Positions 10,683 through 16,912 are shown, counted from the first letter of the stretch. The stretch: 64,000 nt of DNA from an uncultured Prochlorococcus sp. (GCA_902587615.1 CACILY010000001.1:40887-104886); one strand, 5' to 3'. The notes: generated by a model from the sequence alone, not told the origin. Translations and numbers: made by a program.

Positions 10683-10904
10683 GACTAATCTTTATTGCAT
10701 TTATTAAGTGCTTTTTGCCTGTTTACATTGAGATTTATCTAGATCTCTCCTGATATAGGTCTAAATATCTAATTAATCATAGTGTTATACATTTCTTTTA
10801 ATTCATAATGATTAGCATTCCTTTCTTCACAAATCATAGACCTTAAATTGTTCTGTCAAGAAAAGAGCTATAGTTTTTATATCATTTCTAATTAGTTTAG
10901 TCCC

Positions 10905-11672
10905 ATAGATACTTATCTTTTTCATATTCTTCTTTTATCTATCTCTTTAATTGCTAATCTAATCTCTGCCTTTGCAGGAGGTGGTGCAGGACTTATACAG
11001 CTTCCAATTTTAATATTTCTAGGCTTGCCATTCCCATTGGCACTGGCTACCCATAAATTCGCAAGTGTGTGCTTAGGAATTGGTGCAAGTGTTAGACATT
11101 TTCAAAATAAAACATTAAACCCTTCGTTAATGTTTTTTATATTATGTACTGGTATCCCAGGTGTCTTTATTGGTTCAAATATTGTTCTTTTAATACCAGA
11201 TAAATACGCTTATATAGCCTTAGGCATATTAACCTTTTCAGTAGGTTTTTACTCTGCTAATAATAGATCTCTAGGTTCATATACTAATGGTAGAAATTTC
11301 TATAAGAAAAATTTTCTTATAGGGGGCATAGGATTATTTCTTATTGGTATTTTAAATGGATCACTTTCTTCTGGTACAGGGTTAATAGTAACAATCTGGC
11401 TTGTTGGCTACTTTAAACTGAGTTATTCTGAGGCTATTGGATATACATTAATTATTGTTGGATTGTTTTGGAATGGTTTAGGGGCTTTAGTTTTAGGTCT
11501 TATTAGTGAGATTCGGTGGAATTGGATCCCAGCTTTGCTTTTAGGTTCATTAATTGGAGGATATATAGGAGCACATCTCTCTATAAATCAAGATAAACAA
11601 ATCGTGAAAAGAGCCTTTGAAACAATTTCTGTTCTTATGGGGATCTCTCTAGTTATAAGAGGTTTGATGTGA
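10905..11672 (+). CDS. TauE/SafE family sulfite exporter-like permease; N-terminus lacks ATG/GTG/TTG
   Basis: Frame is open from 10896 and encodes IDTYLFHILLLSISLIANLISAFAGGGAGLIQLPILIFLGLPFPLALATHK; the glycine-rich TauE N-terminal motif lies upstream of the 11025 start in the ORF track; ATA at 10905 is the candidate start. Confidence 0.75.
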   Translation: MDTYLFHILLLSISLIANLISAFAGGGAGLIQLPILIFLGLPFPLALATHKFASVCLGIGASVRHFQNKTLNPSLMFFILCTGIPGVFIGSNIVLLIPDKYAYIALGILTFSVGFYSANNRSLGSYTNGRNFYKKNFLIGGIGLFLIGILNGSLSSGTGLIVTIWLVGYFKLSYSEAIGYTLIIVGLFWNGLGALVLGLISEIRWNWIPALLLGSLIGGYIGAHLSINQDKQIVKRAFETISVLMGISLVIRGLM

Positions 11673-11793: not shown

Positions 11794-12036
11794 ATGGAAT
11801 TAACCTTTCTGACTGCATTGTTTTTTCCTGACTATGGAGCAAATGGAGTGCCATGGGATTTGTATCTACTTCATTTCTTCTTCTTTGCAATAGTTATCCC
11901 TTTTCACGTCATAATTTTTGCGGCTCGTAATGGACAGACGGTAAAGCCAAATGGATATAAGGACTGGTTGAAATATGAAACGCAAGCAGTAAAAAATGAA
12001 GAGACTCCATTCCCGAACAATTTCCCTACTGTTTGA
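11794..12036 (+). CDS. Small conserved hypothetical membrane protein
   Basis: 80-aa ORF MELTFLTALFFPDYGANGVPWDLYLLHFFFFAIVIPFHVIIFAARNGQ... Confidence 0.6.
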   Translation: MELTFLTALFFPDYGANGVPWDLYLLHFFFFAIVIPFHVIIFAARNGQTVKPNGYKDWLKYETQAVKNEETPFPNNFPTV

Positions 12037-12045
12037 TTCTTATAT

Positions 12046-13278
12046 CTATTTAAGTAAAAAGGTTTTATTAGACTTTTCTGATTTACTCATATCTTCAATA
12101 CCTGCCTCTGCTAGGTCATCTTGTAATCTATTCTCACAGGCTAGAACTCTAGCCCAACAAGGAAGTTGCTGCTTAACCGGAGACTCTCTAAAGTTTAAGA
12201 TTGCAGGCTTTAATAAATTCCCAAATTTTTGAACCGATAATTCTTCATTATGTCGGTCATAAGGTATTTGGTTAACAGCTGAGTCCAAACCAAACTGTTT
12301 GACTCTATCTTCTCCTACTCGACGGTATAGGACTTCTAATGTAGATAATTGCGAATTAGTAAGTGTCTGAGCTTGATGTTCCATTAATCCCCTAAGAACA
12401 CTTGAAAGAATTTCAGTACACATTTTCTGAAGACCTTCTTTTTGAGTAACACCAATCTCTTTATGCTTGTGATCAAAAAGCCCTAAATCAACCTGAGCTA
12501 TTCGTGAAATTCTTACATTTCTAAAAACTTCCGAAAGTAATCCAATTTCAAGTCCCCAATCACATGGAATTCTTAAGTTCATTCCTAGATCTCTTGTAAA
12601 GGCAAACTCTCCGGCGAGTGGATATCTAAATGCTTGCAAATATCTAAGGAATGCCCCATGCCCTAGCAATTGTTCAAGACTAGTAAGCAATGGACTCACA
12701 AATAATCTTGTTGCACGACCTTGTAATGCATATGTTTCAAGAGAAAGCCTGCTATAAAAAGCTTTTACATATGAGATTCCATGCGAAGGATCTAATAATG
12801 GTTGAAGCATTCTGGCTGGATACGAATTGCTGAAGGTACGAATGTCAGCATCAAAAAGAGCTACTACATCAGATGAACGTGTTGCGACTCCGATTCCCTG
12901 CCAAACAGCCCAACCTTTGCCCGGTGTTCCAAGAAGTTCAAGACCATTCTTTTCTTGAGCTTTTAAAAGTTCTATGACTGCTGGGCCATTAGTCCATTGA
13001 ACATGAACTGGAAATGGCATAGAGGAAAAAAAATCTTTTGCTTCTTTGACTTCGTCTACAGTTTTGGCAGACAAAGCTATAACTAGTTGATTTAAACCTT
13101 CAAGGTTTTTGAGTATATCTCTAATGTTCGCAAGTGCTGGTCTTTTGAATTCGTCAAAAAGACAAGGGATTAAAATTGCTGTAGGCCTTTTCTTTAGACC
13201 CAGACATAGCTCAGATAAGGAATCTGAATTAATTCCATACTCATGAATTGTTGTGATCAAACCCTGTTGAAAGTCCAT
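12046..13278 (-). CDS. gpgS: Glucosyl-3-phosphoglycerate synthase (GT81-like)
   Basis: AILIPCLFDEFKRPAL...GPAVIELLK...GKGWAVWQGIGVA...VALFDADI...PLAGEFAFTRDLGMNLRIPCDWGLEIGLLSEV; context with a GpgP-type phosphatase. Confidence 0.85.
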   Translation of the reverse strand: MDFQQGLITTIHEYGINSDSLSELCLGLKKRPTAILIPCLFDEFKRPALANIRDILKNLEGLNQLVIALSAKTVDEVKEAKDFFSSMPFPVHVQWTNGPAVIELLKAQEKNGLELLGTPGKGWAVWQGIGVATRSSDVVALFDADIRTFSNSYPARMLQPLLDPSHGISYVKAFYSRLSLETYALQGRATRLFVSPLLTSLEQLLGHGAFLRYLQAFRYPLAGEFAFTRDLGMNLRIPCDWGLEIGLLSEVFRNVRISRIAQVDLGLFDHKHKEIGVTQKEGLQKMCTEILSSVLRGLMEHQAQTLTNSQLSTLEVLYRRVGEDRVKQFGLDSAVNQIPYDRHNEELSVQKFGNLLKPAILNFRESPVKQQLPCWARVLACENRLQDDLAEAGIEDMSKSEKSNKTFLLK

Positions 13279-13327
13279 TCGATGATTAGTGCTACAGAAT
13301 TAAGTAAGAAACATCGATCATTCTGAT

Positions 13328-15103
13328 GTGAATAGTAGTAAATACAAGGATTCAGGAGTGGAAGAGGAACTTCAAACCATGAAAGGTTTGATTTATGAAA
13401 TCTACCAAGAACACTCTGCAGAAGAATTAAATATAGTGTGGTCTCAATTGTTGCAGATTTTGGATGAAAATTGTGTAATAGAGAATTCAAAATGTATCTC
13501 GGCTCAACCTCTTTGGGATCAATCTTCTGTTGTTCTTATTGCCTACCCTGATTGTGTCTATCGTGATAAAGAACCTACCTTACAAACCTTTTTAGAACTT
13601 ATAGAGAAAAAGATAGGAGGCTTGGTATCAATTATTCATGTGTTACCTTTTTTAACTTCTACAAGTGATGGAGGTTTTGCTGTTTCAAGCCACGAGGTTT
13701 TAGAAAATCGTTTTGGTGAATGGAAACATTTAAAAGATTTATCGTTTAATCATATTTTGATGGCAGATTTGGTTCTTAATCATGTTTCTTCATCACATGA
13801 ATGGGTTCAGCAATTTATTAAGTCCATTTCACCTGGAAATGAATATATATTGGCACCATCTTCAAAAGATGGTTGGGACAAGGTTATTAGGCCTAGAAGT
13901 TCTTCACTCTTTACCAATTTATCTACCAATAAAGGGCCTGTAGATGTTTGGACTACATTTGGACCAGATCAAGTTGATGTGAATTGGCATAATCCATACA
14001 TATTAATAGAATTCATAAAACTAATAGTTAGATACATAGATCATGGCGTTTTTTGGATAAGGCTTGATGCTGTCGCTTTTATATGGAAGGAAGAAAACTC
14101 ATCTTGTTTGCATAGAGCTCAAGTACATAAAATCGTAAAATTATTAAGAATGTTATTGAGTACTCTTTGTAAGTCTTCAGTAATTATTACCGAAACCAAT
14201 GTTCCAGAGAAAGAAAACCTTTCTTATTTGAATTCAGGAGATGAAGCACATATTGCATACAACTTTACTCTGCCACCATTACTTTTAGAATCTTTAATAA
14301 GTAGTAAGGCAGATTTGCTAAATGAATGGCTTTTTAAATGGCCTTCATTGCCAGATAAAACATCATTCCTAAACTTTACGTCATCCCATGATGGTATTGG
14401 TTTAAGAGCTTTAGAAGGTCTGATGGACTCAAATAGGATTCATAATTTATTATTTAATTGCGAAAAAAGAGGAGGATTAGTTAGCCATAGAAAATTAGAG
14501 AATGGAGAAGAAAAACCATATGAATTAAATATAAGTTGGTGGAGTGCCATGTCCGATAGCGGCCGAGATCAATCTCTTTGGCAGATTCAAAGATTCATGT
14601 TAAGTCAGTTATTTACACTCGCATTAAAAGGTATCCCTGCTTTATATTTACAAGCTATTCTAGCTTCAGAAAATGATATTCGCACTTTTAGTAGTTCAGG
14701 TCAACGTAGAGATTTAAATAGAGAAAGATTTCAAGCAGATACTTTACTCTTAAAACTTAATGATCCTAATTCTTTCCCTAGTAAAATTATTAAAGAGTTA
14801 AAGACAGCAATCCATTTAAGAAAACAATTACAGTGTTTTCATCCTTCTGCACCAATGAAATGCCTTTCTCGAGGAAGAAGTGATATCGTTATATTTTCTA
14901 GAGGAGAGGGCGAGGATATGTTATGGGCAGTTCACAATATGACAAATAATAAGTTAAGTCTTTCACTTTCTAAAAACTTATCAATTCCTGATAACAACGA
15001 GTTACATTTATGGAAAGATTACTTAAGTAATCAGACTTTCTTTGATAACAGAATTGATCTTCAACCTTACTCTGTAATATGGCTTACGCGAGTACAACCA
15101 TGA
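13328..15103 (+). CDS. GH13 sucrose phosphorylase-family protein; candidate glucosylglycerate phosphorylase (start uncertain: 13328, GTG 13361 or ATG 13379)
   Basis: GH13 motifs MADLVLNHVSS, FWIRLDAVAF, ITETNVP, FTSSHDGIG; DQVDVNWHNP; located in a gpgS/gpgP cluster. Confidence 0.85.
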   Translation: MNSSKYKDSGVEEELQTMKGLIYEIYQEHSAEELNIVWSQLLQILDENCVIENSKCISAQPLWDQSSVVLIAYPDCVYRDKEPTLQTFLELIEKKIGGLVSIIHVLPFLTSTSDGGFAVSSHEVLENRFGEWKHLKDLSFNHILMADLVLNHVSSSHEWVQQFIKSISPGNEYILAPSSKDGWDKVIRPRSSSLFTNLSTNKGPVDVWTTFGPDQVDVNWHNPYILIEFIKLIVRYIDHGVFWIRLDAVAFIWKEENSSCLHRAQVHKIVKLLRMLLSTLCKSSVIITETNVPEKENLSYLNSGDEAHIAYNFTLPPLLLESLISSKADLLNEWLFKWPSLPDKTSFLNFTSSHDGIGLRALEGLMDSNRIHNLLFNCEKRGGLVSHRKLENGEEKPYELNISWWSAMSDSGRDQSLWQIQRFMLSQLFTLALKGIPALYLQAILASENDIRTFSSSGQRRDLNRERFQADTLLLKLNDPNSFPSKIIKELKTAIHLRKQLQCFHPSAPMKCLSRGRSDIVIFSRGEGEDMLWAVHNMTNNKLSLSLSKNLSIPDNNELHLWKDYLSNQTFFDNRIDLQPYSVIWLTRVQP

Positions 15104-15909
15104 TAATTAAAACCACAAGAGATATTATTATTGTCTCAGATATTGATGGAACACTGATGGATCATGAATATGATCTTTCTCCAGCAATAGGAACTATTAA
15201 ATGGCTTCAGCAATTAGGAATTCCTATAGTATTATGTACCAGCAAGACAGCTGCTGAGGTCAAGGTTATTAGAGATTTCATTAATATAAATGATCCATAT
15301 ATAGTGGAGAACGGTGGCGCTATTTATGGATCTAATCCAAAGACAAATGAAGAATGGGAATTAATATTAGGTCGATGTTATAGAGATTTAAGAGATGTTT
15401 TGGATAGACTTTCAAATGATATCAAATTTCAATTAACAGCACTAAATGACCTTGGATATAAGGATATAAAAAAGCTTACTGGTTTAAATGATTCTCAAGT
15501 TACTCTGGCTCTAGATAGACATTGGAGCGTACCCTTCTTAAATCCACCTGAAGAATATCAACTTATACTTAATAATTATTTAGACCTATATGACATCAAT
15601 ATATATCAGGGTAACCGGATGAGTCATTTGTTAGGCAGAAACAGTCATAAGGGTAAAGCAGTTTCAGCTTTAAAGAAATTCTTGAATAAGAGTGGTTCCT
15701 CTATTATTGCTCTTGGAGATTCACCTAATGACTTACCATTATTGGAAATTGCAGATCAAGCGATAGTTGTCCCAGGTGTTAATGGGCCGAATCAATCGCT
15801 TATTAATGATCTTATGCGTAATAACATTAATTATATTTTGGCACCGGCTCCCCATGCTAAGGGATGGTCATTTTCTATTAGAAAACTCTTAGAAGAATAT
15901 TATTTATAA
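15100..15909 (+). CDS. gpgP: Mannosyl/glucosyl-3-phosphoglycerate phosphatase (HAD-IIB)
   Basis: VSDIDGTLMDHEYD...VLCTSKTAAEV...VENGGAIYG...GDSPNDLPLLEIAD; ATG 15100 overlaps the upstream stop (ATGA). Confidence 0.82.
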   Translation: MIIKTTRDIIIVSDIDGTLMDHEYDLSPAIGTIKWLQQLGIPIVLCTSKTAAEVKVIRDFININDPYIVENGGAIYGSNPKTNEEWELILGRCYRDLRDVLDRLSNDIKFQLTALNDLGYKDIKKLTGLNDSQVTLALDRHWSVPFLNPPEEYQLILNNYLDLYDINIYQGNRMSHLLGRNSHKGKAVSALKKFLNKSGSSIIALGDSPNDLPLLEIADQAIVVPGVNGPNQSLINDLMRNNINYILAPAPHAKGWSFSIRKLLEEYYL

Positions 15910-15910
15910 A

Positions 15911-16912
15911 GTGAACAACATATCTCAGGATAATAACTTGGATAAATACAATCCATGGTGCTTGGAGTTTCATCAGCATGAATCACTTCCAATGGCTGAT
16001 TACCAACTTCTTTTAGACTATTTCAACTTAACACCTGCTAAATTAACAGATTTGTGGTTACATGGTGATATAGATAAACTTCAATTTCTAAAATCTGAAA
16101 TGTTAATAACCAAAGGTTTTCTTTGGTCATTCTGTCTCCCTATAGTTAGCCATATTGCTTCCTACCTTAGTTCCAATCCTGAACCTGTATTGTTAGGTAT
16201 ATCAGGCCTGCCTGGTTCTGGTAAGTCAACCCTAGGTAAGGTTTTAGAGAAAGCCTTTCAATTGAATAATATAACCTCTAGTGTTATATCTTTAGATGAT
16301 TTTTATCTCCCATCTAGTGAGTTAAATATAGCTATGAAAGATAATCCCTGGAATGTTTCTCGAGGCCTTCCAGGTAGTCATTCATTAGAAGATATTCAGA
16401 ATACAATAGATCTCTTTCGAAAATCAGGAGAAGTAAAAGCTCCAGTCTTTGACAAGTCACTTCGTAATGGGTTAGGTGATAGATCTGGATGGATGTCTTC
16501 TCGTTCTCAAGTTTTAGTCATTGAAGGTTGGTTTATTGGATGTAAACCACTTCAACCCTGCCAAAATATAAATAACTTTGTTTCCATTGATCAAGTTCTT
16601 CTTGATGAAGAAATAATCTATCGATCTAAAGTTCAGAAACTACTAAAGCTTTACGTTCCTATTTGGGATCAGTTCTATAAATTATTTCATCTTAAGGCCA
16701 AAGATTTTCTTTACACGATGTCGTGGAAAACAGAACAAGAAAATAATATGCTATTAACTAAAGGCAGCTCACTTTCTGGTAAAAGGTTGAAATCTTTTAT
16801 CAGAATGATAACTACATCAATTCCACAAAATAGTCTTCAGAATATTGAAGCCAATATCATTTATGAATTAAATAATAGTCGGAATATAATCTCGATAAAA
16901 ACTGTCATTTAG
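15911..16912 (+). CDS. Plant-type D-glycerate 3-kinase
   Basis: P-loop GISGLPGSGKSTLG, SLDDFYLP, RGLPGSHSLEDI, VLVIEGWFIGC. Confidence 0.82.
   Translation: MNNISQDNNLDKYNPWCLEFHQHESLPMADYQLLLDYFNLTPAKLTDLWLHGDIDKLQFLKSEMLITKGFLWSFCLPIVSHIASYLSSNPEPVLLGISGLPGSGKSTLGKVLEKAFQLNNITSSVISLDDFYLPSSELNIAMKDNPWNVSRGLPGSHSLEDIQNTIDLFRKSGEVKAPVFDKSLRNGLGDRSGWMSSRSQVLVIEGWFIGCKPLQPCQNINNFVSIDQVLLDEEIIYRSKVQKLLKLYVPIWDQFYKLFHLKAKDFLYTMSWKTEQENNMLLTKGSSLSGKRLKSFIRMITTSIPQNSLQNIEANIIYELNNSRNIISIKTVI

Follow-up and report, generated by a model that had tools for sequence, protein, structure and literature searches.

Does this picocyanobacterial locus both make and recycle glucosylglycerate (GGA), and is its glycerate kinase shared with photorespiration? 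It encodes a probable glucosyl-3-phosphoglycerate synthase (GpgS), a GH13 enzyme, a glucosyl-3-phosphoglycerate phosphatase (GpgP) and a D-glycerate 3-kinase (GLYK), and we consider it quite likely that it is the Prochlorococcus GGA make-and-recycle cluster. The window (the whole stretch of DNA analysed, 64,000 nt) was taken from a picocyanobacterial genome of 1.10 Mb in 59 contigs. The closest relatives of this genome were two genomes of the same genus, G001 and G002, and absences were judged from G002, which is complete, because the assembly with the window reaches a completeness of 59.5%. The features are as follows.

10926..11672, plus strand: TauE/SafE-family permease gene, convergent with gpgS (the ORF starting at 11025 matches PF01925 at E=2e-31).
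11794..12036, plus strand: conserved hypothetical ORF of 80 aa between tauE and gpgS, 89% identical in the same genus.
12046..13278, minus strand: gpgS, probable glucosyl-3-phosphoglycerate synthase, 410 aa, with a DAD motif in LFDADIRTF.
13279..13327: intergenic region of 49 bp separating the divergent genes gpgS and ggaP.
13328..15103, plus strand: ggaP, predicted GH13_18 glucosylglycerate phosphorylase (GGaP), GTG start, 591 aa.
15100..15909, plus strand: gpgP, HAD-IIB glucosyl-3-phosphoglycerate phosphatase, ATG at 15100 with an alternative ATG at 15079.
15911..16912, plus strand: glyk, plant-type D-glycerate 3-kinase, GTG start, 333 aa, with the P-loop GLPGSGKST.

Gene content and order could be read directly. 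The four ORFs formed the divergent cluster of the original prediction, with coordinates and strands as claimed, and the 1-nt gap between gpgP and glyk was exact (15909/15911). The ATGA overlap between ggaP and gpgP holds if gpgP starts at its second Met (ATG 15100; TGA stop 15101–15103), the longest gpgP ORF beginning at 15079 and not at 15100. The GTG start of ggaP is uncertain: close relatives offer starts nearby, and clear homology sets in at about codon 18, whose Met is a possible start. The arrangement is far beyond chance, because the gene order was identical in all 80 named relatives, save where a contig ended. The permease gene is probably a neighbour of the cluster and not a core part; it adjoined gpgS in the window's genus and several low-light lineages and did not in others. 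Within the 49-bp intergenic region, comparison of 21 loci by eye revealed a block CAGAAT, conserved upstream of gpgS, together with one resembling CGATGAT, and none of the sigma-70 matches listed fell inside it. The promoter/terminator scan showed no excess over shuffles (20 vs 22.4; 2 vs 2.7) and was therefore discarded. Viral contigs searched with GGaP (close relatives only) gave no match and hence no sign of phage carriage.

The gpgS product matched the GpgS model NF040724 at 391.8 bits, under the curated cut-off of 700, over positions 1–400 of 402, and PRK13915 at 101.7 bits. Its best structure matches were all GpgS or MpgS, with mycobacterial GpgS at E of about 6e-15, and the gene was 77–82% identical in the two same-genus genomes. 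The gpgP product scored 283.8 bits against TIGR01486 (HAD-IIB MPGP family; cut-off 164.75) and has both HAD motifs, DxDGT (SDIDGT) and GDxxND (GDSPND); its structure matches were to mannosyl-3-phosphoglycerate phosphatase, and the models do not separate glucosyl from mannosyl enzymes. The glyk product matched solved GLYK structures (7xpc, E=1.8e-18; 6ckg, E=2e-15). Plant or class III GLYKs yield 3-phosphoglycerate, not 2-phosphoglycerate (PMC10970406). For this kinase, the expected return of glycerate to 3-phosphoglycerate is supported at the level of its family.

Two features tell GGaPs from sucrose phosphorylases (PMC7178133): beta-5 ends in (T/S)ETN, and loop A carries a conserved Glu. The beta-5 sequence is IITETNVP in both the GH13 enzyme of the window and E. 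coli YcjM, and it is absent from three solved sucrose phosphorylases. Loop A is KPYELN in the window and SPYEIN in YcjM, with Glu in place of Gln. The corresponding sequences in other clades are NLD[LI]YQ (sucrose phosphorylases), FDVHQ (TtSPP) and VGAIYQ (GGoP), and the sucrose phosphorylase motif N(L/V)D(I/L/V)YQ does not fit the window enzyme. The GGaP signatures are present and the motifs of sucrose, sucrose-6-phosphate and glucosylglycerol phosphorylases are absent. The catalytic triad is complete, with the nucleophile Asp in RLDAV, the acid/base Glu in TETN and the stabiliser Asp in HDG. All 31 cyanobacterial copies in the tree carried TETN or SETN, and the loop-A motif was found in the 28 in which the scan located the region.

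Family searches in NCBIfam and PDB placed the enzyme in the GH13/sucrose-phosphorylase family, with sucrose_gtfA as the best NCBIfam model at 149 bits (cut-off 334). Its best match among the characterised references used was YcjM (local score 793, 33.6% identity); the three sucrose phosphorylases scored 338–363 at 28–31% identity, a roughly twofold difference that is partly due to these references being partial sequences. With sucrose phosphorylases as the root, the tree placed YcjM together with every cyanobacterial copy (100/100), the references besides YcjM being sucrose phosphorylases only; sucrose-6-phosphate and glucosylglycerol phosphorylases were compared in the loop-A region. This tree replaced one with amylosucrase-like outgroups, whose very long root branch was misleading. 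The picocyanobacterial branch is long, and the AU test did not reject a grouping with sucrose phosphorylases (p=0.24). By itself the tree does not decide between the two placements; we rejected phylogeny alone as proof of specificity, and the assignment is carried by residues and gene context. Our literature search found no assay of any enzyme in this picocyanobacterial clade. Taken with the similarity to YcjM and the co-occurrence below, the residues support the prediction that the 13328..15103 protein is a glucosylglycerate phosphorylase and not a sucrose phosphorylase.

We surveyed 200 Cyanobiaceae genomes by sequence searches (the window's own and others at at least 90% completeness), counting strong phosphorylase matches. 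The phosphorylase was present in 103 of the 200, and gpgS and gpgP accompanied it in 103/103. The synthesis genes occurred without it (gpgS or gpgP) in G056, in G178 and in a few partial or distant matches. The divergent gpgS/ggaP-gpgP core had the same arrangement in marine Synechococcus-type genomes, and cyanobacterial family f14 shares this arrangement at lower identity (46–47, 37–38 and 33–36% for gpgS, ggaP and gpgP, respectively). Around the phosphorylase gene of several further cyanobacteria, no homologues of the cluster genes were found out to about 5 kb.

The kinase gene had a different distribution, being present in 194/200 genomes. Of the 103 phosphorylase genomes, 49 had it on the same strand 0.8–1.0 kb downstream of ggaP, with gpgP between, and these 49 all belong to Prochlorococcus-type genera; in 50 it was at least 154 kb from ggaP or on another contig, and for four its place was not listed. 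In the unlinked examples compared (G045, G016, G014 and Synechococcus-type genomes), it stood in the conserved row UPF0182-ftsH-GLYK-DUF565-HAD-recJ. This ftsH-DUF565 site was vacant in seven genomes of the clade with the relocated gene, five with UPF0182 and two with ftsH-DUF565-HAD-recJ only. A GLYK tree with 38 sequences united every linked copy sampled in one clade (95/88), sister to the genus of G045. One linked clade and a vacated old site fit a single move in which no second copy was kept. Most likely, GLYK moved once from the ftsH-DUF565 site into the cluster, in an ancestor from which a large clade of Prochlorococcus descends.

Later losses were found within this clade, some of them in draft assemblies. 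Five genomes that lost the cluster kept GLYK: G011, G030, G031 and G034 were without gpgS, gpgP and ggaP, and in G015 the kinase gene stood beside a gpgS remnant with its 5' end gone and an internal stop. In G056, gpgS, gpgP and GLYK were intact around a ggaP remnant with a large loss and many stops. Retention of GLYK where the GGA genes were lost indicates that the kinase also serves some purpose other than GGA recycling, and the decay of ggaP in G056 indicates that GGA recall is not obligatory and that synthesis can outlast phosphorolysis.

The original prediction had the kinase shared with photorespiration. The general part of this claim, that GLYK has a job outside the GGA cycle, is borne out by its retention. 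The photorespiratory part is doubtful in this lineage. GlcD (model match at E<1e-80) was found in 144/200 genomes and in 51 of the 54 other phosphorylase genomes, but it was missing in 47 of the 49 linked-GLYK genomes, including the complete G002 of the window's genus (exceptions G018 and G047). MIT9312 is reported to have an incomplete photorespiratory set, with only a glcD2-type gene, no glcE or glcF and no 2PG phosphatase (PMC9723591). There may be other glycerate routes, and a further glycerate source is suggested by G011, G030 and G014, which keep GLYK without GGA genes and without GlcD. The tartronate-semialdehyde reductase model gave matches below its cut-off only and was not used as evidence. 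The pattern of GlcD and linked GLYK comes mostly from one clade, so it cannot count as independent support for cause and effect. Tentatively, and with the balance somewhat against it, we propose that the single move was followed by loss of canonical GlcD in most descendants, the osmolyte cycle taking the place of photorespiration as this kinase's main D-glycerate source in many Prochlorococcus. Within this proposal the single move is well supported, and the functional shift to osmolyte-derived glycerate is hypothetical.

From this gene content we infer the substrate, the direction of flux and the control of a GGA cycle. GpgS would join NDP-glucose to 3-phosphoglycerate, and GpgP would take the phosphate off to give GGA. 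GGaP would convert GGA and phosphate to alpha-glucose 1-phosphate and D-glycerate, and GLYK would return the glycerate to 3-phosphoglycerate. Phosphorolysis spares the ATP that hydrolysis followed by glucokinase would require. Each complete turn would have a net cost of about two ATP equivalents, one to regenerate the NTP used for NDP-glucose and one for GLYK, so synthesis and recall are not expected to be active at once. The arrangement suggests that ggaP, gpgP and glyk form one transcript, and gpgS, the only one of the four on the minus strand, would be the simplest control point, acting as a gate. Such control agrees with the opposite transcript shifts of dark-tolerant NATL2A cells, in which GGA precursor synthesis transcripts went down and recycling genes up (PMC11631117).

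Other readings of the same genes were weighed against this cycle, two of which concern the GH13 reaction. As implied by the name gmgG, listed in the picocyanobacterial gpgS cluster (PMC7522525, PMC9361551), the enzyme could be a GGA (or mannosylglycerate) glucosidase releasing glucose and glycerate. GH13 holds many hydrolases, but the signature residues fit a strict GGaP and the nearest characterised enzyme found, YcjM, is described as a strict phosphorylase, so that we regard a glucosidase as very unlikely. It is still less probable, to the point of being hardly credible, that the enzyme is a sucrose, sucrose-6-phosphate or glucosylglycerol phosphorylase standing beside gpgS and gpgP by chance. 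The sucrose_gtfA match and the AU result speak for such an enzyme; the enzyme lacks the loop-A and beta-5 motifs that mark those clades, and every carrier genome has both synthesis genes.

Two further readings accept a GGaP or a GLYK but change its purpose. The same enzymes might serve mainly for uptake and use of foreign GGA and not for recall of an internal store, as proposed for dark-tolerant NATL2A with its adjacent transporter gene (PMC11631117). A TauE-family gene stands beside gpgS in the window, as it does in LLI-type loci, but this adjacency is patchy, being absent in G007, G051 and G096. No part in GGA metabolism is known to us for permeases of the TauE family, and the synthase is present in every genome with the phosphorylase, which makes uptake as the main use quite improbable. 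The kinase, for its part, could be mainly photorespiratory, its place beside gpgP having no functional meaning. GLYK is found in nearly twice as many genomes as the GGA genes and survives their loss; however, canonical GlcD is absent from nearly all linked-GLYK genomes, and the new position, with its short gaps, has persisted in many genera. We therefore judge a mainly photorespiratory kinase unlikely, and prefer the GGA make-and-recycle cycle.

The finding is ordinary in kind, and its useful content is evolutionary detail and a point of re-annotation. GGA ranks among the chief nitrogen-free osmolytes in Prochlorococcus. Whether it serves only for protection or also as carbon that the cell can call back matters for survival at night and in the dark. 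A decision between phosphorylase and glucosidase would put right a name that is still used. The history of relocation and loss offers natural tests in G056, with synthesis but no phosphorylase, and in lineages that keep the kinase without the cycle. In the limited set of literature searched, relocation of GLYK into the GGA cluster was not found; the single move and the retention of GLYK after cluster loss are apparently new here.

The phosphorolytic GGA pathway itself is already known in Prochlorococcus. A phosphorolytic "glucosylglycerate metabolism operon" has been published for NATL2A (Coe et al. 2024, PMC11631117); its GGaP reading rests on Franceus 2017, reviewed in PMC7178133. Like the window cluster, the NATL2A operon, as described there, leads from GGA to glucose 1-phosphate and 3-phosphoglycerate and adjoins a transporter gene; the window comes from a different low-light genus and has the 80-aa ORF separating gpgS from the TauE gene. 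The gpgS-gmgG cluster of marine picocyanobacteria, with gmgG a glucosyl(mannosyl)glycerate glucosidase (Scanlan 2009, as cited in PMC7522525; PMC9361551), has the same synthesis gene in the same organisms, and gmgG is most likely a name for this GH13 gene. That cluster names a glucosidase, whereas the signature residues in the window enzyme point to a phosphorylase. Known GGaPs (EC 2.4.1.352; Meiothermus silvanus, Spirochaeta thermophila and E. coli YcjM) share TETN, the loop-A Glu and the triad with the window enzyme, and GGaP genes often stand beside glycerate kinase, gpgS or gpgP genes (PMC7178133). The window enzyme differs from them in its 32–34% identity to YcjM, its longer N-terminus and the long branch of its picocyanobacterial clade. 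YcjM, annotated as a glucosylglycerate phosphorylase, is encoded in an ABC-transporter/kojibiose operon without gpgS.

Canonical glycolate dehydrogenase (GlcD, model match E<1e-80) was absent from 56 of the 200 Cyanobiaceae genomes surveyed and from 47 of the 49 in which D-glycerate 3-kinase (GLYK) lies 0.8–1.0 kb downstream of ggaP, the inferred glucosylglycerate phosphorylase gene. Within this survey it was also missing in G184, G188, G191 and G197, genomes of one Synechococcus-type genus.

Decay of the cluster was found at two loci:
L109 6700-7440 (genome G056), decayed phosphorylase remnant, flanked by intact gpgS and gpgP
L108 7572-8354 (genome G015), gpgS remnant, truncated and interrupted by an internal stop, adjoining intact GLYK

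Judged from its sequence, G056 has lost the predicted recall step and retained predicted synthesis. G015 lacks both gpgP and ggaP, and its kinase gene is intact.

Three features of the window lie close to gpgS:
10896-11672, +, TauE/SafE permease gene
11794-12036, +, conserved hypothetical ORF (80 aa, ~89% identity within the genus), flanked by tauE and gpgS
13279-13327, short divergent gpgS/ggaP intergenic region containing sequence blocks that are conserved among Prochlorococcus genomes

One of these blocks, CAGAAT(T), lies upstream of gpgS; the other resembles CGATGAT. The permease frame opens at 10896 with no ATG, GTG or TTG ahead of the conserved N-terminal GGGAG stretch; because only ATA/ATT are available, a rare start codon may be used. 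For the transporter whose gene lies next to the NATL2A glucosylglycerate metabolism operon (PMC11631117), this permease is a plausible candidate.
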